From contig CAIKKY010000007.1 of assembly GCA_903828145.1 (NCBI GenBank), positions 1 through 64,000 on the forward strand: a stretch of DNA of 64,000 nucleotides, written 5' to 3'. The position numbers and the translations under genes are program-made. Within the stretch, counting starts at the first letter, position 1. Every line of letters begins with the position of its first letter. The notes under the pieces were generated by a model. That model saw only the letters and a program-made list of their open reading frames with translations, was not told where the DNA came from and made no database searches. Source of the DNA: an uncultured Hyphomicrobiales bacterium (lineage in GTDB: Bacteria > Pseudomonadota > Alphaproteobacteria > Rhizobiales > Devosiaceae). This document shows, in pieces, positions 40,757-56,391 of the stretch.

Positions 40757-41677
40757 ATGACCCATTCTCGCACGGCCCTGATTGGCGCAATCGGCGACAC
40801 CCATATCGCACTCGCTGTTGGCGATGTGGACGAGATGTCCGTCACCCAGTTCGCCCTGCTCAGCAGCGCCGACTTCGCCTCACCCATGGAGGCTATTGCC
40901 CGCTACCTGAAGTCAGTCCCGGTTCCGCCGCGATCTGTGGCGCTGGCGGTTGCGGGCGAGGTGACGGGCGAGAGCGTCGCCATGGCCGCGCGGGGCTGGC
41001 ACTTTTCGGCCCAGGACATCGGCGCGGTGCTCGGCACAGACAGAGTGATGCTCGTGCCGGAAATGGAGGCGCTCGTGCGCTTTGTGCCGCATGTGCAGGC
41101 GGCCGACCTCGTGATCGTCAATACAGGAACGCCGACCCCCGATACCCCCGTGCTGCTGATTAATTGCGGCAACAGCCTGGGCGCTGCCGCCAGTCTTGGC
41201 CCCAAGTGGACGGGCCCCATCGTGCACGGACAGGTCGACTTCATGGACCTGCCCGGCGATGTGCACGGCCTCAAAGGCTTTGACCGGGCCGCTGACCTGC
41301 TCACCGGCCCCGGGCTGATGGCGGCCTATCACACGCTGCGCGGCGCCAAAGCCAATGGCTCCGCCGCCGCCGTGATTAAACTCGGGCTCTCAGGGGACGA
41401 CGATATCGCCAGCGCGACCCTCGATCTGGTGGCCCGCTCGCTGGGCCAGTTTGCCGGTGAGCTGACCCTCGCCTATGGCGCCGGTCGGGTCTTCATGGCC
41501 GGGACCGTGGCGAGCAGCCTTCTGCCGCACCGGCTGGAGCAGTTCATGCAGGGCTTTACCGCCAAGGGACAGGCCGCCGCCCGAATGGAGGCCATTCCCG
41601 TGGCCATCATCAAGACCGCCGCCGATGCCGCCATGCGCGGAGCGGCCGCCCTGTTCGCGGCTCGGCCCGAGGCATGA
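40757..41677 (+). CDS. Glucokinase-fold protein lacking catalytic residues
   Basis: The 306-aa protein follows the bacterial glucokinase (Glk) layout: TALIGAIGDTHIALAVGD, LAVAGEV, VPEMEALVRFVP, LLINCGNSLGAAASLG and HGQVDFMDL. The key motifs are degraded. The ATP phosphate loop G-D-I-G-G-T-N is here G-A-I-G-D-T-H (residues 10-16). The catalytic N-D pair before the A-loop is P-E (101-102). The G-P-G-T-G-L-G loop is N-C-G-N-S-L-G. It is therefore unlikely to phosphorylate glucose and may be a regulatory or sugar-binding remnant. The frame is intact and long, suggesting selection. It diverges from ppsA. Confidence 0.68.
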   Translation: MTHSRTALIGAIGDTHIALAVGDVDEMSVTQFALLSSADFASPMEAIARYLKSVPVPPRSVALAVAGEVTGESVAMAARGWHFSAQDIGAVLGTDRVMLVPEMEALVRFVPHVQAADLVIVNTGTPTPDTPVLLINCGNSLGAAASLGPKWTGPIVHGQVDFMDLPGDVHGLKGFDRAADLLTGPGLMAAYHTLRGAKANGSAAAVIKLGLSGDDDIASATLDLVARSLGQFAGELTLAYGAGRVFMAGTVASSLLPHRLEQFMQGFTAKGQAAARMEAIPVAIIKTAADAAMRGAAALFAARPEA

Positions 41678-41836
41678 AGCCGCTATCGCTGCCGTTCACA
41701 CGGATGTGCTGAGGCCCTGCCCCCATCGCGTGGGGTCGGGCCTTTCGCTTTTTCGGCCCCGGGCACACAGTCAGCAGCACCCAACCCGGCCGGAAAGCTA
41801 CCGAACGCCCGGAAAACGGCACAGACGGGAAACGAT

Positions 41837-41850
41837 GCATACGCATGCAA
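41837..41850. promoter_or_regulatory. LacI-type operator 1 (TGCATACGCATGCA)
   Basis: A dyad with one mismatch to the consensus TGCATACGTATGCA. Its centre is 22 bp from that of operator 2, so the two face the same side of the helix upstream of the transporter gene at 42003. Confidence 0.75.
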
Positions 41851-41858
41851 AAGCGTTT

Positions 41859-41872
41859 GCATTCGTATGCAA
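41859..41872. promoter_or_regulatory. LacI-type operator 2 (TGCATTCGTATGCA)
   Basis: The second of the tandem pair. One mismatch to the perfect palindrome found at 47867-47884. Confidence 0.75.
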
Positions 41873-42002
41873 GCGAAACTAAGCTTACCCCTGCGGATCG
41901 TGGTGGATGGGCAAAGTCCTGGCACCAAAGACCCGTCTCCCAAGCCCTGAGCCCTTGCTGCTAAGGGGGCAGGAGAGCATCTCGAGGACACAGGAGAACG
42001 AC

Positions 42003-43244
42003 ATGAAACACATTCTGGGAGCAGGCGTATCCGTCGCCGCCCTTATGCTGACTGCCACGGTGGCGTTTGCCGATTGCGGCGCACCGGCCGGGTCGGTTCG
42101 CATTCTTTCGAACGATTTTAACGCGCTCAAGGTTGTGGCCACCGCCGCAGCCGAATGCGCGTCTGACACGGTCACCGTGACCGCCAACCAGACCACCGAG
42201 CACAAGAATATCCAGGGTCCGGCGCTCACCGCCAACCCGGCCGAGTACACCGTGGCCATGGTCGCGAACAACTCGATCGTGCCGCTGATGAATGATGGCC
42301 TGATCCGCTCGCTCGATGATCTGGTTGCCAAGTACGGCCAGGAACTCCAGCCGAACCAGCTCATCAAGATCGATGGCAAGGTCATGGCGATTGCCTTCAT
42401 GGGCAATGGCCAGCACCTGATCTATCGCAAGGACATTCTTGAGAAGGCCGGCGTTGCCGCCCCGCAGTCCTATGACGACGTACTTGCCGCCGCCAAGGCG
42501 ATCAAGGATGCCGGTCTGATGGAATACCCGCTCGCCGCTTCGGTGAAGCCGGGTTGGGATCTCGCTGCCGAATTCGTGAATGATTACCTCGCGACCGGCG
42601 CCGATTTCTTCGAGCCCGGCACGGCCACGCTCACCATCAACAACGAGAATGGCAAGAAGGTTCTCGCGCTCATGCAGGCGGAAATCGCCTACATGGACCC
42701 GGCCACCTACCTGACCTTCGACGCAACTGAAATCCAGAAGCAGTACGAAGCTGGCAAGGTTGCCATCATCAATGAATGGGGCTCGATTGCGGGCGCCATC
42801 CTCGATGGCAAGGACTCCGCCGAAGGCGTTGCGGAGAACACCGTGATCGCTGGCGCTCCGACCTTTGCAGGCGGCACCATCCCGGCGGCAGCGCTGTGGT
42901 GGGATGGTTTCACCATCGCCAAGAACATCTCGGACGCCGATGCGGAAGCCTCGTTTGTGGCCATGCTGCACGGCATCAGCCCGGATGTGGTCAAGGCCAA
43001 CCCCGATGCAGCCACCTGGCTGGTCAAGGGCTTCGAGCCCGGTCCGGCGGCCGTCGGCGTGATCGCGAATGCCACCAATGGCGCGCGCGCTTACCCGATG
43101 AACCCCTACATCGGTCTCCTGCACACCGCGCTGTCGGCTGAACTGGCCGATTTCGTGGCTGGCAAGGAAGATGCCGACAAGGCCCTGGCCGATACCGAAG
43201 CGGCGTATAACACTGCCGCCAAGGAAGCCGGTTTCCTGAAGTAA
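42003..43244 (+). CDS. CUT1-type ABC transporter substrate-binding protein of the LacI-controlled cluster
   Basis: A periplasmic SBP_bac_1 protein, 413 aa, with a signal peptide ending at VAFA. Visible family features are SVRILSNDFNALKVVATAA, NNSIVPLMNDGLIRSLDDLV, NGQHLIYRKDILEKAGV, KVAIINEWGSIAGA and ALWWDGFTIAKN. It differs from ordinary sugar SBPs in having a Cys after the signal peptide (ADCGAPAG), but no lipobox. The ATG at 42003 has AGGAGAACGAC upstream. It heads the transporter operon behind two operators. The ligand is unknown. Confidence 0.85.
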   Translation: MKHILGAGVSVAALMLTATVAFADCGAPAGSVRILSNDFNALKVVATAAAECASDTVTVTANQTTEHKNIQGPALTANPAEYTVAMVANNSIVPLMNDGLIRSLDDLVAKYGQELQPNQLIKIDGKVMAIAFMGNGQHLIYRKDILEKAGVAAPQSYDDVLAAAKAIKDAGLMEYPLAASVKPGWDLAAEFVNDYLATGADFFEPGTATLTINNENGKKVLALMQAEIAYMDPATYLTFDATEIQKQYEAGKVAIINEWGSIAGAILDGKDSAEGVAENTVIAGAPTFAGGTIPAAALWWDGFTIAKNISDADAEASFVAMLHGISPDVVKANPDAATWLVKGFEPGPAAVGVIANATNGARAYPMNPYIGLLHTALSAELADFVAGKEDADKALADTEAAYNTAAKEAGFLK

Positions 43245-43262
43245 GCCTAAAAGGCATAACAG

Positions 43263-43284
43263 GGGGGCGGTTCGCGCCGCCCCC
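43263..43284 (+). terminator. Hairpin between SBP and permease genes
   Basis: GGGGGCGG (43263-43270) pairs with CCGCCCCC (43277-43284) around TTCGCG, then TCATTATTTG. The T-run is weak, so it should attenuate rather than stop transcription, as at 19343. Confidence 0.65.
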
Positions 43285-43332
43285 TCATTATTTGAAAGCC
43301 AGCGCGACTGGGCCGCTAACGGTAGACCGGAC

Positions 43333-44364
43333 ATGCCGCACAAGACTTTCCTAGCGTTCATTCTCCCCTCCATCATCGCCATGGTGCTGTTCATCGCGCT
43401 GCCGATCATCTCGGTCGCCGTGCAGTCGCTGTATGTCGAACATGACAAGGTGCTGGTGACGGTTGAGAACTGCCAGCCGCTCGGCGGCTGCACCACTGAA
43501 ACCGTGGTGGATTCCGAGGCGACCGCCAAGCTGAAGGCGGTTGCGCCGCTCGGTGAATTCAACGGGCTGGGCACCTATTTCAACCACGCGCATCTTGCGA
43601 TCGACGAAGTGGCCGAGATCGTTTCAGACAATACCGGTTTCGCCGACATCGTGGCGCGGCTTTATAACCTGCCGTTCTATCGCGCCCTGTCGTTCACGCT
43701 GGCCTATTGCTTCATCGTCACGCCGCTCGCCATGCTGCTGGGGTTCCTGATCGCGCTCGCCATCAACATGGTGCCGCGCCTCCTCAAGGGCCCGGTGATC
43801 TTCTTCTCGCTCTTGCCCATGATCATCACGCCACTGATCGGCTCATTGATCCTCTACTGGATGATCAGCGCCGAGGGCATTCTGGGCGTGGGGCTCAAAT
43901 GGCTGTTCAGCGATCCGACCCTGAGCCTCAAGTCATCCCTGCCGCTGACCTGGATCACGCTCATCATCTACGGCATCTGGACCAATGCGCCCTTCTCCTT
44001 CGTGGTGTTCTATGCGGGCCTGCAAACCGTGCCCGGTGACACCATGGAAAGCGCCATGATCGATGGCGCGAGCCGCTGGGAGCGCATCCGCTATGTGGTC
44101 ATGCCGCACCTGCGCCCGCTCGCCACCTTTGTCGCGCTCGTCCAGCTCATGGATAATTTCCGGGTGTTCGAACCCATCGTCGGCCTGTCGGCGCAGGCCA
44201 ATGCGACCTCGCTCAGCTTCGCCATCTTCAACGATCTGCGCAACCAGAACGCCCAGCAATACGGCTCGGCCGCCACCACCTCGATGCTGACCATTATCGG
44301 CGTCATCATCCTACTCATGCCGGTGCTGATCCGCACCTGGCGCGAATATCACCAGAAAAGCTGA
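43333..44364 (+). CDS. ABC transporter permease, MalF type
   Basis: An inner-membrane permease, 343 aa. The first helix is FLAFILPSIIAMVLFIALPI, followed by a periplasmic loop of about 85 residues with two Cys (NCQPLGGCTTE) that is long for the family. The coupling loop is DTMESAMIDGASRWERIRYV near residues 238-260. It pairs with the permease at 44376, 11 bp downstream. Confidence 0.87.
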   Translation: MPHKTFLAFILPSIIAMVLFIALPIISVAVQSLYVEHDKVLVTVENCQPLGGCTTETVVDSEATAKLKAVAPLGEFNGLGTYFNHAHLAIDEVAEIVSDNTGFADIVARLYNLPFYRALSFTLAYCFIVTPLAMLLGFLIALAINMVPRLLKGPVIFFSLLPMIITPLIGSLILYWMISAEGILGVGLKWLFSDPTLSLKSSLPLTWITLIIYGIWTNAPFSFVVFYAGLQTVPGDTMESAMIDGASRWERIRYVVMPHLRPLATFVALVQLMDNFRVFEPIVGLSAQANATSLSFAIFNDLRNQNAQQYGSAATTSMLTIIGVIILLMPVLIRTWREYHQKS

Positions 44365-44375
44365 GGGGAAGGCCC

Positions 44376-45254
44376 ATGTCGCTCGTCAACCGCCAACCGT
44401 TCACGCTCAAGCTGGTCGCCAGCCTGTTCATCATCGTCTGGCTGGTGCTCGCCGCTTTCCCGTTCCTGTGGACCGTGTGGGGCTCGTTCAAGGTCGAAAG
44501 CGACTTCTTCTCGCGCGAGAGTTTCTGGCACGCGATTACCGGCTTTTATACCCAGAAGGAAACCGGCTCGGCCTTCACCGGCAACGGCTATTATGGCGCC
44601 TGGGTCGAAAGCAAATTCTGGAAAGCCGTCATCAACACGGTGATCGTCACGCTGTCGGTCACCGTGATCTCGCTGACACTCGGCACGCTGGGCGGCTATG
44701 CGCTCGCCCGGTCCGGCCGACGCTACGCATTCTGGATTCTGATCGCGGCGCTGGTGTTCCGCGCCATGCCGCATATCACGCTGGTTTCGGGCTATATGCT
44801 GCCCTTCTTCCAGCTCAATATCTGGGGCTATCTGCCCACCTCCATCATCGTGCTCGTGGCTATCAACCAGCCCTTCACGCTGTGGATGCTGCACTCGTTT
44901 TTCCTGTCGATCCCGAAGGATCTCGACGAAAGCGCCATGGTCGATGGCTGCTCGCGCTTTGAGGCGTTCCGCCGCGTGGTCATTCCGGTCATGTGGCCGG
45001 GCGTCATCACCACGGGGCTCTTCAGCTTTCTGCTCGGCTATAATGATTTCGCCGTCACCGCGATGCTGTTGAGCCAGGATAACCAGACCATGGTGCCGAA
45101 GATTTCGAGCTATCTCGGTTCGATCTACGATAATGGCCACGTCATGTACGCGGTGGCCGCCGTGGTTTCGGCCACTGTGCCTTTGTTCATGCTGGTGCTG
45201 TTCTTCCAGCGCCAGATCGTTTCGGGTCTCACCGCCGGCGCGGTGAAGGGGTAA
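44376..45254 (+). CDS. ABC transporter permease, MalG type
   Basis: The second permease, 292 aa. The helix-rich start is LKLVASLFIIVWLVLAAFPF; the coupling loop is KDLDESAMVDGCSRFEAFRR near residues 185-205; the C-terminus ends FQRQIVSGLTAGAVKG, as usual for MalG-like proteins. ATG at 44376 follows GAGGGGAAGG. Confidence 0.88.
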   Translation: MSLVNRQPFTLKLVASLFIIVWLVLAAFPFLWTVWGSFKVESDFFSRESFWHAITGFYTQKETGSAFTGNGYYGAWVESKFWKAVINTVIVTLSVTVISLTLGTLGGYALARSGRRYAFWILIAALVFRAMPHITLVSGYMLPFFQLNIWGYLPTSIIVLVAINQPFTLWMLHSFFLSIPKDLDESAMVDGCSRFEAFRRVVIPVMWPGVITTGLFSFLLGYNDFAVTAMLLSQDNQTMVPKISSYLGSIYDNGHVMYAVAAVVSATVPLFMLVLFFQRQIVSGLTAGAVKG

Positions 45255-45259
45255 GTCTC

Positions 45260-46312
45260 ATGGCACGCATCGAGCTCAAAAACGTGTCGCGGCGCTGGCA
45301 CAATTTCGTAGCCGTCGACAATTTCAACCTGACCATTGCCGACCAGGAATTTCTGGTGCTGCTCGGGCCCTCGGGCTGTGGCAAAACCACGACCATGCGC
45401 ATGATCGCGGGGCTGGAAGAAGTCTCCTCCGGCGAAATCTGGCTTGGCGACCGCATGGTCAACCGGCTCGAGCCCAAGGACCGCGACATCGCCATGGTGT
45501 TCCAGTCCTATGGCCTCTACCCGAACATGAGCGTGTACGAGAACATCCGCTTTCCGCTCAAGGTGCGCAAAGTGCCGAAGGCCGAACACGATGAACGCGT
45601 GATGCGCGCGGCGCGGATGGTGGAACTCACCGATCTGCTCGAGCGGCGCCCGGCGGCCCTCTCGGGCGGCCAGCGGCAGCGCGTGGCGCTCGCCCGTTCC
45701 ATCGTGCGCGAACCGACGGCCTTCCTCATGGACGAACCGCTGTCGAACCTCGACGCCAAGCTGCGCGTCTCGACCCGGGCCCAGATCAAAAACCTGCACC
45801 ACACGCTGAAGACCACGACCATCTATGTCACGCACGACCAGATTGAGGCCATGACCCTGGCCGACCGCGTGGTGGTCATGAACAAGGGCCTGATCCAGCA
45901 GGTCGGCACGCCGACTGAAATCTATGATCGTCCGGCCAACACCTTCGTCGCCGGGTTCATTGGTTCCCCGGCCATGAACCTGGTTTCGGGCAGCGTGAGC
46001 GAGGGCGTGTTCACGGGTGAAAGCATCGCCATCAGGGGCGTGCCCGGCTCGATCAACGGTCCGGTGACGCTCGGCTTCCGCGCCGAAGACGCAGCGCTGG
46101 TGCCCGAAGGCGGTGAAATCAGCGCGCCGATCTATTCGCTCGAACTGCTGGGCGACGCCTCGATGGTCAGCATGCGGCTCGGCGGCGAACTGGTGTCGAT
46201 CAAGGCCGGCAAGGACTATCGCGCCGAAATCGGCGATCCCGTGCGGGCGCGTGTGCCGGTTGCGGCGTGCCATTTCTTCGACCGCTCCACCGGACAACGC
46301 ATCGGGGGTTGA
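45260..46312 (+). CDS. ABC transporter ATP-binding protein, MalK/UgpC type
   Basis: The ATPase of the cluster's transporter, 350 aa. Walker A is GPSGCGKTTTMRMIAG near residue 37, the signature [16 protein letters not shown], Walker [17 protein letters not shown], with TTIYVTHDQIEAMTLADRVV behind it. The TOBE-containing C-terminal domain is complete. The stop TGA overlaps the first ATG of the following small gene (TGATGATG). Confidence 0.9.
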   Translation: MARIELKNVSRRWHNFVAVDNFNLTIADQEFLVLLGPSGCGKTTTMRMIAGLEEVSSGEIWLGDRMVNRLEPKDRDIAMVFQSYGLYPNMSVYENIRFPLKVRKVPKAEHDERVMRAARMVELTDLLERRPAALSGGQRQRVALARSIVREPTAFLMDEPLSNLDAKLRVSTRAQIKNLHHTLKTTTIYVTHDQIEAMTLADRVVVMNKGLIQQVGTPTEIYDRPANTFVAGFIGSPAMNLVSGSVSEGVFTGESIAIRGVPGSINGPVTLGFRAEDAALVPEGGEISAPIYSLELLGDASMVSMRLGGELVSIKAGKDYRAEIGDPVRARVPVAACHFFDRSTGQRIGG

Positions 46313-46314
46313 TG

Positions 46315-46464
46315 ATGCCACCTGCCGCGCTCGACAATCGCGCCAAAGCCGATGGCCATTCCATTCCGCCCGAACGCATCGAGCCGATTGAAAAAGGCGC
46401 GACGTGGCTCCGCGATTGCGTGGCCACGCTCAAAACCTATCTTAAACAGCGGCCGCGCCCATGA
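46315..46464 (+). CDS. Small protein before the amidase, possibly AtzG-like
   Basis: A 49-aa frame (50 aa if the overlapping ATG at 46312 is used) sits between the ATPase and the amidase, touching both: it starts at the ATPase stop and its own stop overlaps the amidase ATG. The sequence SIPPERIEPIEKGATWLRDC resembles the IPPE-x-R-x-G-V-x-x-x-L pattern of AtzG, the small GatC-like partner of amidases such as AtzE. It lacks transmembrane or secretion signals. The identity with AtzG is a weak, unverified resemblance; the context supports it. Confidence 0.55.
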   Translation: MPPAALDNRAKADGHSIPPERIEPIEKGATWLRDCVATLKTYLKQRPRP

Positions 46465-47816
46465 CTCCCGCCGATCTTGACCTCATCAGCGCCGGAACTG
46501 CCCTCCGGGCAGGGTCACTGACCTCGGAAAACCTGATCGGCGCGGTGCTCGACCGGATTGCCCAGCGCGAGCCCACGCTCAACGCCTTTACCGCTCTTTA
46601 TGCCGACAGGGCCCTGGCGGCAGCGCGCGCGGCAGACCGCGACCTCATGAATGGCATCGACCACGGTCCGCTGCATGGCCTGCCCGTGGGCATCAAGGAT
46701 CTGATCGACATTGATGGCGAAATCACCGGCTGCGGCTCGCGAGTCGCCGTGGCCGGACCGGCCAGGGCCGATGCCGAGGTGGTGCGCCGCCTGCGGGCGA
46801 AGGGCGCCATCATTCTGGGCAAACTCCAGACCTATGAATTTGCCGTGGTCGGTCCCGATTTCAACCTGCCGCACCCCCCGGCACGCAATCCCTGGAACCG
46901 CGACCACAGCACAGGCGGCTCGTCATCCGGGTCGGCGGCGGCCGTCGCGGGCGGGCTGCTGCGCACCGCGCTGGGCACCGATACCGGCGGCTCGATCCGC
47001 AGCCCGTCGAGCTATTGCGGCGCAGTGGGTCTGAAGCCAACCTATGGCACCGTGCCAACGGGCGGCGTGTTTCCGCTCTCCCCCAGCCTTGATGTGATTG
47101 GCCCGCTGAGCGCCAGCGTCGCCGAAGCGGCTCTCACCTTTGATGCCATTGCCGATACCAAGGCCTCGCGCCTGATCGGCGCACCGGTCGCTGGGCTCAG
47201 GGTCGGCTATGCCCGCGCCTGGTTTGCGTCGGACCCCAATTGCGATGCGGCCGTGTTGCAGGCTCTTGATGACGCCGCCTCGACGCTCAGCCTTCTGGGT
47301 GTGCGCATTGAGGAGATCGACCTGCCCGATTACGCGCTGTTTGAAGCCGCCGGGGCTGTGGTGCTGCATGCCGAAGCCTATCAGGTGCACAAGGCGATGA
47401 TGGCAGCCGATCCGCGCGGCTATGGACGGCTGGCTTACCAGAGCGTGATGAGCGGCATGCTGCTCTCCGATGCCGATGTCGCGGTGGCGCGCGAGGCCGG
47501 TGCGGCGCTGACTGCCGAGCTGTTCGCGGCCATGGCGCCGGTGGATGCGCTCCTCACGGCCAACACGCTGTCAACCGCCCTGCCCTTTTCCGCCTTCGAC
47601 GGCGAAACCGTGGTGTGGACGCATATGCGCACCCTGCCCTTCAACGTCACGGGTCAGCCCGTGCTGGCCCTGCCCTCGGGCTTCAGCAACCGCTTGCCTA
47701 TGGGTCTGCAACTGGCAGCGCGGCCCGGCGATGAGGCGCTGCTCTGCCAGATCGGCCATGCCTTCGAGCAGGCCACCGATCATAGCGCGCAGCGGCCGCA
47801 GCTTCCGGGGCTCTGA
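46461..47816 (+). CDS. Amidase signature family enzyme
   Basis: It hydrolyses an amide to acid and ammonia or amine. The 451-aa protein has the catalytic triad of the family: Lys in PVGIKDLID (about K79), the cis-Ser in TGGSSSGSAAAVA (about 154-156), and the Ser nucleophile in GTDTGGSIRSPSSYCG (about S178). The substrate may be imported by the transporter encoded just upstream. It is followed by a LacI operator and the first HisD-like gene. Confidence 0.88.
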   Translation: MTPADLDLISAGTALRAGSLTSENLIGAVLDRIAQREPTLNAFTALYADRALAAARAADRDLMNGIDHGPLHGLPVGIKDLIDIDGEITGCGSRVAVAGPARADAEVVRRLRAKGAIILGKLQTYEFAVVGPDFNLPHPPARNPWNRDHSTGGSSSGSAAAVAGGLLRTALGTDTGGSIRSPSSYCGAVGLKPTYGTVPTGGVFPLSPSLDVIGPLSASVAEAALTFDAIADTKASRLIGAPVAGLRVGYARAWFASDPNCDAAVLQALDDAASTLSLLGVRIEEIDLPDYALFEAAGAVVLHAEAYQVHKAMMAADPRGYGRLAYQSVMSGMLLSDADVAVAREAGAALTAELFAAMAPVDALLTANTLSTALPFSAFDGETVVWTHMRTLPFNVTGQPVLALPSGFSNRLPMGLQLAARPGDEALLCQIGHAFEQATDHSAQRPQLPGL

Positions 47817-47866
47817 CCCCGCACTGCCTTACCCCCCGGGACTTTTTGCCCCAGTGGGTTTACACT

Positions 47867-47884
47867 TTTGCATACGTATGCAAA
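47867..47884. promoter_or_regulatory. LacI-type operator 3, perfect (TTTGCATACGTATGCAAA)
   Basis: An 18-bp perfect palindrome with central CpG, 43 bp upstream of the HisD-like gene at 47928. It is the best copy of the motif. Confidence 0.85.
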
Positions 47885-47927
47885 TGTTCCGGAAATGGCC
47901 GAATGGCCCAAGAGGAGACGTGACGAT

Positions 47928-49253
47928 ATGCCCATCTGGCTCAAGCGCGGCAAGGACAACGCGGCTCGCGCCGAGGCGAATCGGCAGGTTCGCACCACGG
48001 TCGAGACCATTCTCGAAGACATCGAGAAGCGCGGCGATGCGGCCTTGCGCGACCTGTCGAAGAAATACGACAACTGGGATCGCGAAGACTTCCGCCTGTC
48101 GCAGGCTGAAATCGATGCCGCCATGGACAGCCTGTCAAAGCAGGATCTGATCGATATCGCCTTTGCGCAGAAGCAGGTGCGCAACTTTGCTGAACAGCAG
48201 CGGGCGACCATGACCGACCTGACGGTCGAAACGCTGCCGGGCGTGACACTGGGGCACAAGCATGTGCCGATCAGCGCCGTGGGCTGCTATGTGCCTGGCG
48301 GCAAATATCCGCTGCTCGCCTCGGCCCATATGTCGGTCGTCACCGCCAAGGTGGCGGGCTCGAAGCGTGTCATCACCTGTGCCCCGCCGTTCAACGGCAA
48401 GGCGGCCCCGGCCATTGTCGCGGCTCAGGCCATGGCAGGGGCGGACGAAATCTATGTTTTAGGCGGCATTCAGGCCGTGGGCGCCATGGCCATCGGCACG
48501 CAGACGATCAAACCGGTCGACATGCTGGTCGGGCCCGGCAACGCCTATGTGGCCGAAGCCAAACGCCAGCTTTTTGGCCGCGTCGGCATCGATCTGTTCG
48601 CCGGCCCAACCGAAACCCTGCTGATTGTCGATGAGACCGTCGATGGCGAAATGTGCGCCACCGATCTGCTCGGCCAGGCCGAACACGGCCCAACGTCACC
48701 AGCGGTTCTCGTCACCAATTCCGAAAAGCTGGCGCGCGACACCATGGCCGAAGTCGAGCGGCTGCTCCTCATTCTGCCCACGGGCGAAGTCGCCCGGCAG
48801 GCCTGGCAGGATTACGGCGAAGTGATCCTGTGTGACAGCTATGAAGACATGCTGGCGGTCGCCGATACCATCGCCTCAGAGCATGTGCAGGTGATGACCG
48901 ACCGCGACATGTGGTTCCGCGATACCCTCAGCAATTACGGCGCGCTGTTTCTGGGCCCCCGCACCAATGTTGCCTATGGAGACAAGGTGATTGGGACCAA
49001 TCACACTCTCCCCACCATGAAGGCGGCGCGCTATACAGGGGGTCTGTGGGTGGGCAAATTCATGAAGACATGCACGTGGCAGGTCGTGGAAACCGACGAG
49101 GCGTCAGCGCTCGTGGGCGAATATGCCTCGCGCCTGTCCATGCTCGAAGGCTTTGCCGGCCATGCCGAGCAGGCCAACCTGCGCGTCCGCCGCTACGGCG
49201 GCCGCAACATCCCCTATGCCACCGCAGCGGCACCCCGGGGCGCGAAGGATTGA
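47928..49253 (+). CDS. Histidinol-dehydrogenase-family NAD-dependent alcohol dehydrogenase 1
   Basis: The fold is that of HisD, but the context has no his genes; the family also holds catabolic enzymes such as sulfopropanediol 3-dehydrogenase (HpsN). Conserved zinc and catalytic parts are present: [14 protein letters not shown], the NAD-side [35 protein letters not shown] (Gln and His zinc ligands), ASEHVQV with the Glu-His pair, GTNHTLPT and the C-terminal EGFAGHAE. It is 441 aa from the ATG at 47928 with an AGGAGACG site; an upstream TTG inside the operator is rejected. It oxidises an unknown primary alcohol to the acid. Confidence 0.82.
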
Positions 49254-49254
49254 T

Positions 49255-50019
49255 ATGAAGCTCCCCGCCACACCGTCGTTCAGGCTTGATGGAAAGCGTG
49301 CGCTCATTACGGGCGGCTCGCGCGGCATCGGGCTGGCAGCGGCTGTGGCGCTCGCCGAGGCTGGCGCGGCCGTGACAATCGCGGCGCGCACAGCCGATGC
49401 GGTCGATGCGGCTGTTGCCGCGTTGCGGGCCGCGAGCTTCACCGCCGATGGGCTGGTGTTTGATGTCACCGACGGGCCAGGCGCCACGGCCGCTATCGAG
49501 AAGGCCGGGCCGTTCGACATTCTCGTCAACAGCGCCGGGGGCGGCCGTCACAACACCTTCCTCGATACGCCCGAGGCCGATGTGCGCGCCGTACTCGACA
49601 TGAATGTCACCGGCCTCATGGTCGTATCGCAGGCGGTGGCCAAGGCGCTCATCGCGCTCGGCCGTCCCGGCTCGATCATCCATATTTCCTCGCAGATGGG
49701 CCATGTCTCGGCCCCCAAACGCGCCGTTTATTCGGCCAGCAAGTTCGCGGTTGAAGGGCTGACCAAGGGCATGGCCATTGAACTCGGGCCGCACGGTATC
49801 CGGGTGAACACCATCTGCCCGACCTTCATCGAAACCGAACTCACGGCGAAAAATCTCAGCATTCCAGCCTTCCGGGCCTGGGTGCTCGACAGGATCAAGC
49901 TCGGCCGCCTGGGTAAGGTCGAAGACATTATGGGCCCGGTGGTCTTTCTCGCGTCCGATGCCTCGGCCCTTATGACCGGCTCGGCACTGATGGTGGATGG
50001 CGGATGGACGGCGGAGTAA
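49255..50019 (+). CDS. Short-chain dehydrogenase/reductase
   Basis: A classical SDR, 254 aa: TGGSRGIGLAAAVAL at residues 17-31, NSAGGGRHN near 88 and the catalytic Tyr in AVYSASKFAVEGLTKG near 160. LMTGSALMVDGGWTAE closes the fold. It starts one base after the HisD-like gene and ends 16 bp inside the LacI regulator gene, so all three are co-transcribed. Confidence 0.9.
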   Translation: MKLPATPSFRLDGKRALITGGSRGIGLAAAVALAEAGAAVTIAARTADAVDAAVAALRAASFTADGLVFDVTDGPGATAAIEKAGPFDILVNSAGGGRHNTFLDTPEADVRAVLDMNVTGLMVVSQAVAKALIALGRPGSIIHISSQMGHVSAPKRAVYSASKFAVEGLTKGMAIELGPHGIRVNTICPTFIETELTAKNLSIPAFRAWVLDRIKLGRLGKVEDIMGPVVFLASDASALMTGSALMVDGGWTAE

Positions 50020-51068
50020 CCAAGCGCTCGCCCGTCACCTCCTCGCAGGTGGCCGATCATGCCGGCGTCTCGCAGTCGGCGGTGAGCCGCGCCTTCACGC
50101 CCGGCGCGTCGATTTCGCCCAAGACCCGGGCCCGCGTGCTCGCCTCGGCCAAGGCCCTCGGCTACCGGCCCAACGCCATTGCGCGCACGCTCATCACCAA
50201 CCGCTCGCGCATCATCGCCGTGGTGATGGCCTATCTCGAAAACCTGTTCTACCCCGATGTGCTCGAAGAGCTGGGCCGTCGCCTCGCCGCCGAAAACTAC
50301 CACGTGCTGCTGTTCACCGGCTTCAAGGATCGCGACAGCGACCCGGTATTCGACCAGATCATGCAGTATCGGGTTGATGGCATCATCCTCGCGTCCACCT
50401 CGCTCTCGTCTGAACTGAGCGAGGAGTGCATGGTGGCCGGCATCCCCGTGGTGCTGTTCAACCGCACCACCGAGCGCGACGAAACCAGCTCGGTCACCAC
50501 CCAGAACCGCGAGGGCGGCAAGCTGCTCGGCCAGTTCCTGCTGGCCGGTGGGCACAGAAGTTACGGCTATATCGCCGGGCTCGAAAACTCCTCAACCAAC
50601 CGCGACCGCCTCACCGGCTTCCGTGAGGCCCTGTCGGCAGCGGGGATCGTTGATCTTGAAATCCGCACCGGTAACTTCAGCCGCGTGGATGCCGAAGCCG
50701 CCGCGCGGGAAATGCTCTCGCTGCCCAACCGCCCCGAAGCCATTTTCGTCGCCAACGATCACATGGCCGTCGCCGTGATGGACGTGGCCCGCTACGAATA
50801 TGGCCTGTCCATTTCGCGCGACCTGTCGATTGTCGGCTTCGATAATGTAGGCCCGGCCCGCTGGCCGAGCTATGGCATCACCACGGTCACCCAGCCGATC
50901 AGGCAGATGGTCGAGGCGACGGTCGATATCCTCATGGACCAGATCGCCTCGGGCGAAATCGAAGCCATCCACAAGGCCATTCCAGGCGAGCTGATCGTGC
51001 GCGAGTCGGCCCGGCTGCCCGCCACCGGCATCATCGAAACCAACGGATACAGGGTCTACCGGCCCTAA
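50004..51068 (+). CDS. LacI-family transcriptional regulator
   Basis: Proposed controller of the cluster from 41837 to 56391. The 354-aa protein has the HTH VTSSQVADHAGVSQSAVSRAF and the hinge helix YRPNAIARTLITNRS, then the periplasmic-binding-like domain with GIILASTSLS, NRTTERDETSSV and VGFDNVGPARWPSYGITTV. LacI-family proteins bind palindromes with a central CpG through the hinge helix, as in TGCATACGTATGCA, which occurs five times in the promoter regions of this cluster. The start ATG lies inside the SDR gene. A terminator follows at once. Confidence 0.92.
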   Translation: MDGGVTKRSPVTSSQVADHAGVSQSAVSRAFTPGASISPKTRARVLASAKALGYRPNAIARTLITNRSRIIAVVMAYLENLFYPDVLEELGRRLAAENYHVLLFTGFKDRDSDPVFDQIMQYRVDGIILASTSLSSELSEECMVAGIPVVLFNRTTERDETSSVTTQNREGGKLLGQFLLAGGHRSYGYIAGLENSSTNRDRLTGFREALSAAGIVDLEIRTGNFSRVDAEAAAREMLSLPNRPEAIFVANDHMAVAVMDVARYEYGLSISRDLSIVGFDNVGPARWPSYGITTVTQPIRQMVEATVDILMDQIASGEIEAIHKAIPGELIVRESARLPATGIIETNGYRVYRP

Positions 51069-51093
51069 GGCGCGGCCTTGGCCGGGCCTTTTT
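51067..51093 (+). terminator. Terminator after the LacI-type gene
   Basis: AAGGC-g-CGGCC / GGCCG-g-GCCTT around TT, followed by TTT. It separates the regulator from the cupin gene, which has its own operator 13 bp further on. Confidence 0.7.
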
Positions 51094-51105
51094 CTGGGCT
51101 AACGA

Positions 51106-51119
51106 TGCATACGAATGCA
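51106..51119. promoter_or_regulatory. LacI-type operator 4 (TGCATACGAATGCA)
   Basis: One mismatch to the consensus. It lies 22 bp before the ATG at 51142, so it probably covers the transcription start of the cupin gene. Confidence 0.75.
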
Positions 51120-51141
51120 ATACACGAAAGGACAGCAGATC

Positions 51142-52182
51142 ATGAGCAAGTGGACACAGGAGGCGATGGAAAAGCGCCTCGTGCGGTATGCGGACCTGAA
51201 GGGGCTGCGCAACGCGTTTATCGATGCGCGGTCGCCCGGTTCGGACCGCAAGGAAAACTTCACGATCATCGGGCCGGGCGTTTCTGAAAACCCGGCGCAG
51301 GTTGTGCATATCCCCGAGCCGCATGGCTTCAACATCGGCGCGGCCCGCCAGCCCGGCGGTTGCCTCAACTCGCAGCACTCGCATCTCACCGCCGAGGTCT
51401 TTGTGGTGCATTCGGGCAAGTGGCGCCTGCTGTTCGGCCACGACAAGAAGGAAGGCTTCCTCGATGTCGAGCCGGGCGATGTCGCCTCGGTGCCCACCAA
51501 TATGTTCCGCGGCTTCGAAAAGCGCGACGAGGGCACGGGCTTCCTGTTCGTGGTTCTCGGCAAGGATGATCCGGGCAAGGTGCTCTGGGCCCCCGCCGTG
51601 TTCCAGCTCGCCGCCGATTACGGGCTGAAGCTGCTGAAGGGCGGCAAGCTCGTTGATACGACCCTGGGTGAAACAGTCCCGCCGGGTGCCGAACTTGAAG
51701 TCCCGCCCGATGCCGCTGTCATTGCGCGGCTCGCCACCCCGCCGCTCGAGAAAATGCAGCAATGCTACGCCTCCAACGCGCAGCAGAAAGCCAACCCAAA
51801 TTCGCCACTCGCCGGCGAAGGCGTGGAAGAAGCCGGCGTCATCGTGCCGACCGCCACCGACGATGGCTTTGCCCCCGGCCCGATCTCGGGCTGGTGGGAG
51901 CACGGCTTCAACGTGCGCCGCCTCACCCTGCAGACCGGCGCAACCGTGGCCCAGCATGCCCGGGCCGAGCAGGAAGTGCTGTTCGTGCAGTCAGGTACGC
52001 TCGAAGTCACCTGGGAGGGCGGCGCGCTGATCCTCGGTGCGGGCGACACGCTCAGCGTGCCGATCGGCCTGATGCACGGATTCCGCAACACGGCCTCTGT
52101 GCCTCTCGTGACCTTTGTCATCCGTGGCGCCGATAGCCCGAAGGCACCCGTTTTCGCAGATAACCGTGTGGCCGCCGAGTAA
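51142..52182 (+). CDS. Double-cupin domain protein
   Basis: A 346-aa protein with two cupin barrels. The first (about 40-130) shows CLNSQHSHLTAEVFVVHSGKW and DVEPGDVASVPTNMFRGFEK; the second (about 250-340) shows GATVAQHARAEQEVLFVQSG and LGAGDTLSVPIGLMHGFRNT. The His-x-His and Glu of the first domain are compatible with a metal site; the second has HARAEQE. The family includes gentisate dioxygenase-like and sugar isomerase-like enzymes, so the reaction is unknown. A better ATG than the frame start at 51115 is 51142, with AAAGGACAGC upstream. Confidence 0.8.
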   Translation: MSKWTQEAMEKRLVRYADLKGLRNAFIDARSPGSDRKENFTIIGPGVSENPAQVVHIPEPHGFNIGAARQPGGCLNSQHSHLTAEVFVVHSGKWRLLFGHDKKEGFLDVEPGDVASVPTNMFRGFEKRDEGTGFLFVVLGKDDPGKVLWAPAVFQLAADYGLKLLKGGKLVDTTLGETVPPGAELEVPPDAAVIARLATPPLEKMQQCYASNAQQKANPNSPLAGEGVEEAGVIVPTATDDGFAPGPISGWWEHGFNVRRLTLQTGATVAQHARAEQEVLFVQSGTLEVTWEGGALILGAGDTLSVPIGLMHGFRNTASVPLVTFVIRGADSPKAPVFADNRVAAE

Positions 52183-52211
52183 GCGGTCACCCCCCGAACG
52201 GAGGTTCCCCC

Positions 52212-52913
52212 ATGCAACTGAGCGCTGAAACCTGGGCCGCCCTGCGCGGCACCGACACGCCCACCGTGTGCAATGCGCTTGAGCATTGCATGGGGGGCCG
52301 CACCGCCGAGGGCTTCACCAAGGTCCCGGTGGTTTCGGCCGATCCGGCCCTGCCCGCCATGGTGGGCTTTGCCCGCACCGCCAAAATTCGCGCCTCATCC
52401 CCGGCCCTTAGGCCCGCGGCGGAGGTGCGGACCATGCGCATGGCCTATTACGATTACGTCGTCTCCGGCCCCGGCCCCAACATCGTCGTCATCGAAGATA
52501 CCGACTGGCCGCATTGCGTCGGCGGGTTCTGGGGCGAAATCAATGTCGCGGTCCACAAGGGCCTCGGCCTTGCCGGTACGCTGACCAATGGCGTGCTGCG
52601 CGATCTGGGCACGCTCGATCCCGGCTACCAGGTGGTGGCGGGGTCCGTCGGCCCGAGCCACGCCTTTGTGCATGTCACCGATATCGACGTGCCGGTCACG
52701 ATCCTCGGCATGCAGGTCAAGCCCGGCGATCTCGTCCACGCCGATCGGCATGGCGCGGTCGTCATCCCGGCGCAGCATGTGGAGAAAATCGGCGCGGCAG
52801 TGGCGCTGGTGTTCAAGAAGGAACGGGCGGTCATCGAGGCGGCCCGGGCGCCCGGTTTTACGGTCGAAAAGCTCAAGGCCGCGTGGGCCGAAATGGAATC
52901 CATCGTCAGCTGA
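52212..52913 (+). CDS. RraA-like / 4-hydroxy-4-methyl-2-oxoglutarate aldolase family protein
   Basis: A 233-aa protein of the RraA/HMG-CHA aldolase fold. The active-site elements GGFWGEINVAVHKGLGLAGT and GVLRDLGTL (Arg-Asp) fit metal-dependent aldolases that release pyruvate from a hydroxy-oxo acid. HADRHGAVVIPAQHV near the C-terminus is also typical. In a catabolic cluster an aldolase or decarboxylase is more likely than an RNase E inhibitor. It follows the cupin gene by 29 bp and ends at a terminator. Confidence 0.83.
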   Translation: MQLSAETWAALRGTDTPTVCNALEHCMGGRTAEGFTKVPVVSADPALPAMVGFARTAKIRASSPALRPAAEVRTMRMAYYDYVVSGPGPNIVVIEDTDWPHCVGGFWGEINVAVHKGLGLAGTLTNGVLRDLGTLDPGYQVVAGSVGPSHAFVHVTDIDVPVTILGMQVKPGDLVHADRHGAVVIPAQHVEKIGAAVALVFKKERAVIEAARAPGFTVEKLKAAWAEMESIVS

Positions 52914-52943
52914 TCCCTCCCAGTCAAACCGCTGACGATCTCT

Positions 52944-52971
52944 GCGGGGGCCAAGGCCCCCGCTTTTTTTT
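52944..52971 (+). terminator. Strong terminator after the RraA-like gene
   Basis: GCGGGGGCC (52944-52952) pairs with GGCCCCCGC (52955-52963), followed by eight T. It may also limit read-through into the convergent HisD-like gene. Confidence 0.88.
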
Positions 52972-53014
52972 GGCGATGAGGCCGGATACGGGGGCCTTTC
53001 GGCCCCCGCTGCGT

Positions 53015-54301
53015 TCAGGCCTGCATGCGGTCGAGCCGCAATTGCGCGGCGCGGCGGTGGCCCTCGAGCGTTTCGGAGGCGCTCTGGCGCGCCGCAGCCG
53101 GAGCCACGGCCCTGACGCCACGCTCATCGAGCCACTGATGAGTGGCAATTTTCACATAGGCGCCAACCCAGAGCCCGCCGGTGTAGCGACCCGCCCCCAT
53201 CGTGGGCAGCGTGTGGTTGGTGCCCACGCATTTGTCGGAATAAACCACGCTCGCCAGCTCGCCAATGAACAGCGAGCCATAGTTGCGCAGCTTCTTGGCC
53301 ATGCCATGCGGATCGGCGGTGTGGACCTGCAGATGCTCGGCCGCGATGAAATCCGAATAGGCGATCATGGTCGCCTCATCCGGGCAAAGCGCGATTTCGC
53401 CATAGTTCGCCCAGGCCTCGCCCGCAACTTTGGCGGTCGAAAGCGTCACGAGCTGCTTGTCCACTTCCCGCGCCACCGCCTCAGCCAGCGCCTTATCAGT
53501 AGTGATGAGCCCCACACGGGTGCGCACATCATGCTCGGCCTGCGCGAGCAGATCGGTCGCGATCATTTCGGCATCACCGGTATGATCGGCCACCACGAAG
53601 ATTTCCGACGGGCCGGCGAGCTGGTCGATGCCCACCGGGCCGAAAACCTGACGCTTGGCTTCGTTCACAAAGGCATTACCGGGGCCGACGATTTTGGTGA
53701 CGGCCGGAACCGTTTCGGTGCCGAACGCCATGGCGGCAATGGCCTGCGCCCCGCCGATCCTGAAGATTCGGTCTGCACCCGACAGGTGACACCCGGCAAT
53801 CATCGCCCTGTGCGCATTGGGCGGCAGACAGGCGATCACTTCGTCGACGCCGGCCACCTTGGCCGGAACAATGGTCATGATCGGGGCCGACAGCAGCGGA
53901 TAGCGGCCACCAGGCACATAACAGCCGACGCGCTCAATCGGGATGACGCGATGGCCCAGATGCACCCCCGGCAGCGTTTCGATTTCGAGCGGCAGCATGG
54001 TCTTGAGCTGCGCCTCGGCAAAGCGGCGGACATTGGCAATGGCAAATTCGGTATCAGCGCGCGTCTGGGGCGCGAGTTCGTTCAGCGCCGCCTCGCGCTC
54101 AGCTGCTGTCACCTCGAAAACGGTGAGGTCGGACTTGTCGAATTCCTTCGAATAATGCCGCACGGCGGCATCGCCATTGTCGCGCACGTTCTTCAGAATG
54201 GCCGCAACCAGCGTTTCCACCGGCGCGTTATCGCTCACCGAATTGCGGGCCGGAGCCTTCACATAGGTCACGCCCGCGGGGGCCTTGGTGGAATCGGTCA
54301 T
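53015..54301 (-). CDS. Histidinol-dehydrogenase-family NAD-dependent alcohol dehydrogenase 2
   Basis: The second HisD-fold enzyme, 428 aa, is distinct from the one at 47928. It has [57 protein letters not shown] (Gln, His zinc ligands), AAEHLQVHT (Glu-His), [10 protein letters not shown] and a shortened tail EGHRRAAQLR. The start is the ATG at 54301 with GGAGACG upstream; the frame runs on without a good start. It is read from the same divergent region as the alpha/beta hydrolase gene and lies under operator 5. Confidence 0.83.
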   Translation of the reverse strand: MTDSTKAPAGVTYVKAPARNSVSDNAPVETLVAAILKNVRDNGDAAVRHYSKEFDKSDLTVFEVTAAEREAALNELAPQTRADTEFAIANVRRFAEAQLKTMLPLEIETLPGVHLGHRVIPIERVGCYVPGGRYPLLSAPIMTIVPAKVAGVDEVIACLPPNAHRAMIAGCHLSGADRIFRIGGAQAIAAMAFGTETVPAVTKIVGPGNAFVNEAKRQVFGPVGIDQLAGPSEIFVVADHTGDAEMIATDLLAQAEHDVRTRVGLITTDKALAEAVAREVDKQLVTLSTAKVAGEAWANYGEIALCPDEATMIAYSDFIAAEHLQVHTADPHGMAKKLRNYGSLFIGELASVVYSDKCVGTNHTLPTMGAGRYTGGLWVGAYVKIATHQWLDERGVRAVAPAAARQSASETLEGHRRAAQLRLDRMQA

Positions 54302-54376
54302 TGGTTCGTCTCCAGCAGTCACTATTGTCGCGAAATCAGCATGAGGGGACAGGGAACCATCCCCGAAGAAAGCTCT

Positions 54377-54390
54377 TGCATACGTATGCA
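54377..54390. promoter_or_regulatory. LacI-type operator 5 (TGCATACGTATGCA)
   Basis: A perfect palindrome in the 200-bp divergent region between the HisD-like gene (54301, minus) and the hydrolase (54503, plus). Confidence 0.82.
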
Positions 54391-54502
54391 TTATTTGCCA
54401 GTGTTTTTTCACAGACGCGGAAACTGCGCGCGTCCGGGGCTTGACCGGCGCTTGTTTTGCGTTCCCAACCGCTCCCGCACTTGAAACCGAGCCGACCCCG
54501 CA

Positions 54503-55240
54503 ATGCCTGCGACCGAGCCGCTTCTCCTGATCCCCGGCACGCTCTGCGACGAGCGCGTGTTTGCACCCGCCCTGCTCGGGCTGGATGTCACGAGCCATGC
54601 CGTGCCGCTAGAGGGGACGACGACCATTCCCGATATGGCGCGGCTGATCCTCGCCGAGGCACCGCCCCGCTTCGCGCTCTGGGGCTTCTCCCTCGGCGCC
54701 ATGATCGCCCTTGAACTGCTGGCCCAGGCGCCCGGGCGCGTTACGCGGCTGGCGCTGATGGGTGCCAATGCCGGTACGCTGTCGCCCGAAAAGGCCGAGG
54801 CCCGGCGCGCGGCGTGGCGGCTCGCCCGGCAACGCGGGGCCGGAGCCTTTGTCGACGCCACCTGGGATGCCGCCATCCCCGTCCATGCGCGGGCCGACCA
54901 GAATCTGCGGGCCCGGCTCCATGCCATGGCCAATGACACGCCGGAACGCGCCTTTGCCGATCAGGTAGAAATGGCGATAAACCGCCGCGATCACCGGCCG
55001 CTGCTCGGCGCCATCAGCGTGCCGACCCTGGTGATGGTGGGCGACGAAGATCACATCTGCCCGCCGAGCCTCGCGACCGAAATCGCCACGGCGATCCCCA
55101 ACGCCAGGCTCGAAATCATTCCCGGGGCGGGCCATTATGCCAGCCTCGATCAACCCCAGGCGGTTGGCCGCGCGCTGCAGCGCTGGCTCGCCGCTCCAGT
55201 TCTCCCGATTTCCGAAATCCCGTTCAAGGAGTTGAAATGA
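54503..55240 (+). CDS. Alpha/beta hydrolase
   Basis: A 245-aa protein. The start PLLLIPGTLCDERVF, the nucleophile elbow ALWGFSLGAMIAL near residue 60, the acid in LVMVGDEDHICPP near 186 and the His in IPGAGHYASLDQP near 215 give a complete catalytic triad. Similar enzymes act as enol-lactone or ester hydrolases. It is co-transcribed with the next gene (stop overlaps its ATG) and probably controlled by operator 5. Confidence 0.87.
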   Translation: MPATEPLLLIPGTLCDERVFAPALLGLDVTSHAVPLEGTTTIPDMARLILAEAPPRFALWGFSLGAMIALELLAQAPGRVTRLALMGANAGTLSPEKAEARRAAWRLARQRGAGAFVDATWDAAIPVHARADQNLRARLHAMANDTPERAFADQVEMAINRRDHRPLLGAISVPTLVMVGDEDHICPPSLATEIATAIPNARLEIIPGAGHYASLDQPQAVGRALQRWLAAPVLPISEIPFKELK

Positions 55241-56391
55241 CCGATCCCGATAGCGACAAAGGCAAGACCGCCCGCCTCTCCCGCATCAATACCCCGCCGG
55301 AAAACGTCCTGCAGGTTGAACGGCGTGATTACCCCGAACTGGCCCCCACCGACCGCCCGCGCAGCCAGTCGCTCGACGGCTTCGATGAGGTCTATACCGA
55401 CATCGTGGATTACATCGTGCGCTGCACGCACAAGATCTGGGACGAGCGCGACATCGGGCTGATCTACACCCACTACACGCATAATTGTGTGCTCTACGGC
55501 ACGCTGGGCACGATCTACAACCGCGAGGATGTGGTGCGCGACACCATCCAGCGGCTCGTTTCGTTCCCCGAGCGCCGCGGCATGGCCACGCAGGTCATCT
55601 GGAACGGTGACGACAAAGACGGCTTCTACACCTCGCACCTCGTGACCGGCTCAGGCCGCCACACCCAGTACGGGCACCTCGGCGCCCCGACGGGTCGCCC
55701 CTTCGTGTCGCGCACTATTGCCGACTGCATGATCCTCAATAACAAGATCTACCGCGAATGGGTGGTGGCCGACACGATGGCGATCATCCGCCAGCTTGGG
55801 CTCGATCCGCATGGCTTTGCCGAACGCTTTGCCAAATCCGCCTTCGACAAGGGGCAGCTCTCGCTCGACATCGGCGAAAACCGCCGCCTGCTCGGCCAGT
55901 ATCCGCCCGAGGCGGAAGCCGATGTGTCGCTCGCGCATACTGATCTCGAAGCGGAAACCCTGCGCTGGCTGCACGAAGTGTTCAACAAGCGCATGTTCGG
56001 CAAGATCAAGGACGTTTACGCGCCCACCGCGCAGTACCACGGCCCCAACATGCGCGAACTCTATGGCGCAGCCGCCGTGCTGCATCAGCACCTCGGTCTC
56101 ATCGGCTCGATCCCGGATGCCGGCTATATGCCGCTGCACATCTGCTCCACCCCCTGTGAGGAAGGCGGCACCAAGGTCGCTGTCCGCTGGATCATGGAAG
56201 GTCACCACCTCGGCTACGGCATTCTCGAAGCCCTGGGCGAGCCCACGGGCAAGCGGCTCCAGGTGATGGGCATGACCCACTACCACTACAAAGAGGGCAA
56301 GATCGTCGATGAATGGAACGTCTATGACGAGCTGAGCCTGCTGACCCAGATCAAGCTGGCGCAGTTGCAGGACGCGCCGAAGGGCGCGTAA
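55237..56391 (+). CDS. Double NTF2-fold (SnoaL/ester cyclase-like) protein
   Basis: A 384-aa protein with two NTF2-like cone folds. The first (about 45-185) contains HKIWDERDIGLIYTHYTHN and GRPFVSRTIADCMILNNKIY; the second (about 225-365) contains EVFNKRMFGKIKDVYAPTAQ, VAVRWIMEGHHLGYGILEAL and GMTHYHYKEGKIVDEWNVYDE. SnoaL-like proteins include cyclases, hydrolases and isomerases; no catalytic residue identifies the reaction here. It is the last gene of the proposed regulon on this side. Confidence 0.75.
   Translation: MTDPDSDKGKTARLSRINTPPENVLQVERRDYPELAPTDRPRSQSLDGFDEVYTDIVDYIVRCTHKIWDERDIGLIYTHYTHNCVLYGTLGTIYNREDVVRDTIQRLVSFPERRGMATQVIWNGDDKDGFYTSHLVTGSGRHTQYGHLGAPTGRPFVSRTIADCMILNNKIYREWVVADTMAIIRQLGLDPHGFAERFAKSAFDKGQLSLDIGENRRLLGQYPPEAEADVSLAHTDLEAETLRWLHEVFNKRMFGKIKDVYAPTAQYHGPNMRELYGAAAVLHQHLGLIGSIPDAGYMPLHICSTPCEEGGTKVAVRWIMEGHHLGYGILEALGEPTGKRLQVMGMTHYHYKEGKIVDEWNVYDELSLLTQIKLAQLQDAPKGA

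Follow-up and report, generated by a model that had tools for sequence, protein, structure and literature searches.

The 64,000-nucleotide stretch analysed here (the window; contig CAIKKY010000007.1 of an uncultured Hyphomicrobiales bacterium of the Devosiaceae) contains a catabolic gene cluster with five palindromes of the TGCATACGTATGCA type and, in their midst, a gene for a LacI-family protein (50004-51068). As judged from sequence, this protein is very probably an autoregulated local repressor that responds, most likely, to the substrate of the pathway or an early intermediate, acts through the five palindromes as operators by promoter occlusion, and controls about 13 genes. A tandem pair of operators (1a and 1b) precedes the genes for an ATP-binding cassette (ABC) transporter, comprising a substrate-binding protein (SBP), two permeases and an ATPase, followed by a small open reading frame (ORF) and an amidase gene. 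Operator 2 precedes genes for a HisD-like dehydrogenase (HisD1), a short-chain dehydrogenase/reductase (SDR) and the LacI-family protein, and operator 3 those for a bicupin and an RraA-like enzyme. Operator 4 is flanked by the gene for a second HisD-like dehydrogenase (HisD2) and, divergently, by genes for an alpha/beta hydrolase and a protein with two SnoaL domains.

Operators in the window and in the genome

The original prediction had placed a site ahead of genes of this cluster in all five cases, and this held. The size of the regulon was given there as about 12 genes and is better put at about 13 plus the small ORF, with operon extents estimated from gene spacing and from terminator-like hairpins, the latter not being enriched (11 found vs 9.6 expected in shuffles). 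The predicted starts at 47869, 51106 and 54377 were exact, and those at 41837 and 41859 were one base too high (true starts 41836 and 41858). A scan of the window bore out the two perfect copies (47869 and 54377), the distance of 22 bp between the upstream two and the central CG of all five sites, the remaining three (41836, 41858 and 51106) having one mismatch each. At up to three mismatches the window held six matches against 1.61 expected (standard deviation 1.31), a number reached in 0 of 100 shuffles; the sixth match (position 785, three mismatches) lies outside the cluster.

Frequent occurrence of the motif elsewhere in the genome had been named as evidence that would speak against a regulon. 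In the whole genome (2,954,223 bases in 32 contigs, 98.3% complete), the five sites with 0-1 mismatch were all in the LacI cluster, so that this objection falls away and, at this stringency, the motif occurs only near the regulator gene. At two mismatches there were three additional sites (C7:286062, C13:41889 and C21:121753), of which C13:41889 is, as judged by eye, at the 3′ end of an apparent coding frame. The reversed motif, used as a control, gave two forward matches genome-wide at up to two mismatches. A glucokinase-family gene (window 40757-41677) lies directly upstream of the tandem operators and has no site ahead of it.

Conservation and reach of the operators

The distribution of motif and regulator was compared in 101 genomes of the family, using for the motif a strict form (TGMATWCGWATKCA) that misses one of the five window sites. 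The regulator search covered 101 genomes drawn in the same way; all those named in it belong to the motif set, and the 53 without a match are unnamed. An ortholog of the LacI-family protein (72-100% identity) was present in 28 of the 101 genomes, 27 of which carried at least three copies of the motif, and none of the 73 genomes lacking the ortholog had three or more. The reversed pattern matched once, in one genome.

The comparison of orthologous promoters that the original prediction had called for was made in 22 loci of the family; this number counts the window and two loci of a single genome (G376). All 80 promoters retained a site within two mismatches (SBP 19/19, HisD1 22/22, cupin 20/20, HisD2 19/19). 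Mean pairwise identity of the operators was 0.92 for SBP, 0.95 for HisD1, 0.98 for cupin and 0.97 for HisD2, and that of the flanks 0.35, 0.34, 0.31 and 0.53, respectively; these means are from 19, 18, 15 and 19 loci, those with less than 30 bases of flank in the cut stretch having been dropped. That the palindromes are chance occurrences, or inherited sequence without function, is scarcely credible: the same-family loci do share ancestry, but ancestry alone is insufficient to explain the sites when flanks, mostly about one third identical, range over 31-53% against 92-98% for the operators, and control palindromes are nearly absent.

The sites also differ from promoter to promoter in a constant manner. 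The pair before the SBP gene was retained at 22-25 bp in 18 of 19 same-family loci, the HisD1 site was a perfect palindrome in 18 of 22, the cupin site had the same asymmetric sequence TGCATACGAATGCA in 19 of 20, and the HisD2 site read TGAATACGTATGCA in 15 of 19. Departures from the palindrome are thus promoter-specific, and this asymmetry may confer graded affinity. In one locus (L096:15794-18272), an extra SnoaL-like ORF and a second amidase gene, with an additional operator, were observed between the genes for permease 1 and the SBP.

Sites of this type reach past the family. We examined the best 80 of 144 regulator-related loci from a collection in which each species is represented by a single genome, and found 170 sites at 0-1 mismatch (at least one in 64 loci, at least two in 41), while 30 control palindromes gave a mean of 0.4 and a maximum of 4 sites in the same loci. 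Many of the 80 loci come from the same Devosia genomes as the family set; setting aside 30 close ones by list position and title left 50 loci, with regulators mostly about 50% identical, in which 53 sites were counted (at least one in 35 loci, at least two in 15). According to the record titles, these outside loci include Enterobacterales, Polynucleobacter and Jannaschia, and the genes most common beside LacI in them were those for HisD1 (37), SDR (35) and cupin (28). The recognition helix VSQSAVSR was identical in 12 of 12 aligned regulators, at identities down to 49%. Tandem sites before transporter genes outside the family are often 46-56 bp apart (L049, L053, L055 and others), not 22-25.

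Twelve further plasmid loci were scanned. Sites with 0-1 mismatch were present in L043, L083 and L085, and none were found in L041, L078, L079, L080, L081, L082, L084, L088 and L089. No LacI gene is annotated in the stretches of L041, L079, L081 and L088, and L078 is unannotated. In L084, which has a HisD1 of 72.8% identity, the LacI-family protein has a different helix (SVSTVSR), and no site within two mismatches was found.

Several observations weigh against the interpretation of the cluster as a LacI regulon. One or two sites occurred in 8 of the 73 family genomes without the ortholog, and the sole genome with a regulator and fewer than three motif copies (G348) has degenerate HisD1 sites only, with two and three mismatches; HisD1, SDR and LacI were its only cluster genes in the 20 kb read. 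The same-family loci were picked because the regulator was present and are related by descent. In the wider set, no 0-1-mismatch site was seen in 16 of the 80 loci, 15 of which belong to the 50 non-family loci. In addition, L080, L082 and L089 keep SQSAVSR without a 0-1-mismatch site in the stretch read, so that the exact site cannot be predicted from the helix alone. Finally, a consensus promoter scan called no promoter at any of the operators.

The three loci just named could also mean that the sites are bound by another DNA-binding protein, for instance a different LacI-family member, and that the local regulator controls something else. The genome has ten LacI-type helix-turn-helix (HTH) matches, and the L039 cluster contains two LacI genes. 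We consider this unlikely, as the sites track the LacI ortholog over the 101 genomes and persist beyond the family, at about 50% LacI identity, in 35 of 50 loci, and no 0-1-mismatch site is located near another LacI gene of the genome.

Promoter geometry and mode of regulation

The surroundings of the HisD2 operator have the geometry of a −35/−10 promoter, with −35-like and −10-like blocks as read from sequence. All 19 of the 19 loci have CTGGCA on one side of the operator and CAAGA on the other, with a spacing of 17 bases (17 loci when T or G is required as the following base). In the window, operator 4 (54377-54390) is situated between 54401-54396 and 54378-54373, with a two-base overlap with the latter. 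This filling of the −35/−10-like spacer points to repression by occlusion. At HisD1, 11 of 19 loci have TTTAC immediately ahead of the site. Downstream of operator 2 the genes for the SDR and the LacI-family protein overlap, and the regulator gene is apparently part of a regulated operon.

We propose that, in the absence of inducer, the LacI-family protein would bind all five TGCATACGTATGCA sites. Bound repressor would occupy the −35/−10 space and exclude RNA polymerase at the HisD2 promoter, the case being less clear for HisD1, while the tandem pair would shut off the transporter operon. The inducer is most likely the substrate itself, a sugar- or polyol-like compound that is imported, or else an early intermediate; it would free the repressor, and the approximately 13 genes would switch on together. 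Alternatively, the regulator might activate, or act both ways depending on the promoter. The tandem pair is 131-167 bases upstream of the chosen SBP start codon (picked by eye from a ribosome-binding site and a signal peptide), a position compatible with activation; dual action is known in some LacI-family proteins, and in the portion of PMC4052901 available PckR is predicted to be dual. Such a role is rather improbable, given that the HisD2 operator occupies a place typical of repressors in every locus compared.

Repression from local operators would fit what the available portion of a study of 1173 regulators describes for local LacI-family sugar regulons (Ravcheev et al. 2014, PMC4052901), namely an even palindrome with a central CG, a repressor encoded near its targets, autoregulation, and sites mostly 30-140 bp upstream. 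The present cluster shares with them the HTH and periplasmic-binding-like domains, the even CG-centred palindrome, the position of the regulator gene and of the sites, and the proposed autoregulation. Unlike those regulons, it has a tandem pair whose members stand about 23 bp apart and have imperfect halves in mirror image, and promoter-specific asymmetric sites kept across species.

The lac and gal repressor systems likewise have several operators, whose spacing corresponds to loop lengths. Several operators and the proposed mode of promoter occlusion are thus common to these systems and the cluster; in contrast to them, the pair here is spaced by 22-25 bp, not by loop lengths, and no leucine-heptad tail was seen by eye at the C-terminus of the regulator. 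The position of the operator in the promoter spacer, the asymmetry of the sites and their reach past the family are additions to the original prediction.

Table 1. Operators, promoter-like blocks, genes and hairpins of the LacI cluster (window coordinates).
Feature	Position	Strand	Basis
Operator 1a, TGCATACGCATGCA, outer of tandem pair	41836..41849		motif scans; conserved pair
Operator 1b, TGCATTCGTATGCA, inner of tandem pair	41858..41871		motif scans; conservation
ABC transporter SBP	42003..43244	+	weak phmmer match to SmoF (3.8e-7); sugar-binding fold matches
ABC permease 1	43333..44364	+	PF00528
ABC permease 2	44376..45254	+	PF00528
ABC ATPase, UgpC-like	45260..46312	+	NF008653, 457 bits (cut-off 432)
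Small ORF, 50 amino acids	46312..46464	+	proteins of 46-50 amino acids beside the amidase in L039, L040, L042; no Pfam hit
Amidase-signature enzyme	46461..47816	+	PF01425, 4.1e-88; AtzE model match under its cut-off
TTTACA, possible −35 of HisD1 promoter	47859..47864	+	by eye
Operator 2, perfect palindrome	47869..47882		motif scans; conservation
HisD1, HisD-like dehydrogenase	47928..49253	+	PF00815, 6e-135; nearest solved chains DHPS dehydrogenases
SDR oxidoreductase	49255..50019	+	PF13561, PF00106
LacI-family regulator, proposed repressor	50004..51068	+	PF00356 HTH; PF13377, PF00532 periplasmic-binding-like domain
Terminator-like hairpin after LacI gene	51074..51093	+	hairpin scan; no commoner there than in shuffles
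Operator 3, TGCATACGAATGCA	51106..51119		motif scans; conservation
Bicupin	51142..52182	+	PF07883; model pLDDT (predicted local distance difference test) 90; bicupin fold
RraA-like enzyme (aldolase or decarboxylase family)	52212..52913	+	PF03737, 6.7e-17; weak matches 3k4i, 3noj
Terminator-like hairpin with T run after RraA	52944..52971	+	hairpin scan
HisD2, HisD-like dehydrogenase	53015..54301	-	PF00815, 2.4e-137
CAAGAG, −10-like block of HisD2 promoter	54373..54378	-	CAAGA invariant in 19/19 loci
Operator 4, perfect palindrome, HisD2/hydrolase intergenic	54377..54390		motif scans; conservation
CTGGCA, −35-like block of HisD2 promoter, 17 bases from CAAGAG	54396..54401	-	invariant in 19/19 loci
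Alpha/beta hydrolase	54503..55240	+	PF00561, 9.2e-18
Double SnoaL-domain protein ("ester cyclase")	55237..56391	+	PF07366, 2.2e-25, two stretches
DHPS, 2,3-dihydroxypropanesulfonate.

HisD-like enzymes and the encoded pathway

Both HisD1 and HisD2 scored above the cut-off of TIGR00069, a model for histidinol dehydrogenase. With PF00815, the four HisD-like proteins obtained 556.5 bits (C6:136345), 458.6 (HisD2), 450.7 (HisD1) and 445.5 (C21:151806). The highest score, taken as the mark of the biosynthetic enzyme, belongs to neither HisD1 nor HisD2, and its distance from the others makes C6:136345 the likely biosynthetic histidinol dehydrogenase. The gene at G000 C21:151806-153035 (L100:9809-11023) lies beside SDR and ABC transporter genes and has no 0-1-mismatch site.

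Among solved chains HisD1 is closest to DHPS dehydrogenases, and for this reason degradation of DHPS or a relative was considered. The set of a HisD-like enzyme and an SDR recalls HpsN with HpsO and HpsP as presented in the available part of PMC11382572, and the SBP weakly resembles SmoF. According to the same part of that source, DHPS dehydrogenase (HpsN) is defined by His126 in G-R-Y-A/S-H. Among HisD1 and HisD2 hits of at least 60% identity from the best 80 of 144 regulator loci, the corresponding place has the form [GA]GK[YF]P[LMI] for HisD1 (66 of 67 hits) and GGRYP[LI] for HisD2 (36 of 37 hits), the odd hit being unaligned there in each case; the aligned hits have Leu, Met or Ile where HpsN has His126. 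The two enzymes are like HpsN in belonging to the HisD fold family and in the catalytic Glu318, His319 and Asp352, which align in both as read by eye; they differ from it in that GK[YF]P or GRYP stands in place of GRY[AS]H. Moreover, no sulfolyase family was detected among the cluster proteins scanned. A DHPS pathway was set aside because His126 is absent, and we regard it as very unlikely.

As for the other proteins, the SBP gave no Pfam hit at E 0.001; its model resembles sugar-binding proteins, and that of the bicupin resembles oxalate decarboxylase and quercetinase, which indicate general classes only, with template-modelling scores mostly of 0.5-0.7 among the matches listed. Hypothetical proteins of 46-50 amino acids are also encoded next to the amidase gene in L039, L040 and L042. 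None of these three, nor the small ORF of the window, had a Pfam hit, and the AtzG-like label given to the latter was dropped for lack of one.

The pathway might proceed by ABC uptake followed by hydrolysis of an amide or ester. A HisD-like enzyme would then take a CH2OH group to the carboxylate in a four-electron oxidation, the SDR would oxidise the neighbouring alcohol, and the RraA-like enzyme would cleave or decarboxylate the product.

The gene content varies among loci. Plasmids of Novosphingobium, Klebsiella and Pantoea carry an aldolase/citrate lyase family gene together with HisD and SDR genes and no RraA gene annotated in the stretch, and the Novosphingobium protein matches PF03328. 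Such HpcH/HpaI-type aldolase genes, beside HisD and SDR and with no RraA annotated, were observed at L080:5978-6727, L082:16019-16801 and L083:14811-15602, and the aldolase is possibly a non-homologous replacement of RraA. A MetE-like (Meth_synt_2) gene lies between the cupin and RraA genes or nearby at L053:6407-7540 and L049:2279-3400, with look-alikes recognised by eye at L093:12098-13240 and L096:5732-6862; no gene stands in this place in the window. The clusters of L085, L088 and L089 each contain several "ester cyclase" (SnoaL-type) genes, with up to four in L085.

Literature searches by gene content, by HpsN terms and by locus tags of S. meliloti found no description of the cluster in listings and the starts of abstracts, and a search by the motif string gave nothing related by title and abstract. 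SMa0392 is named, in the available portion of PMC8844928, only as a transport target of small RNAs.

The type of regulation is already known, that of a local LacI-family regulon, and it is the unnamed pathway that merits further work. It seems reasonably probable that an undescribed regulon and catabolic pathway occur in several proteobacterial lineages, defined by a VSQSAVSR subfamily of LacI proteins and another class of HisD-like enzymes, which carry G[KR][YF]P[LMI] and are distinct from both histidinol and DHPS dehydrogenases, and ending with an RraA-like or HpcH/HpaI-like aldolase. If this is true, departures from the palindrome would grade repression among the transporter, the enzymes and the regulator's own operon. 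The operators show which genes make up the pathway, which occurs in bacteria of soil and marine origin and in plant-associated ones; the repressor would be a ready reporter for finding its substrate. A group of genes is also marked out whose annotation as histidinol dehydrogenase probably does not reflect a role in the biosynthesis of histidine.

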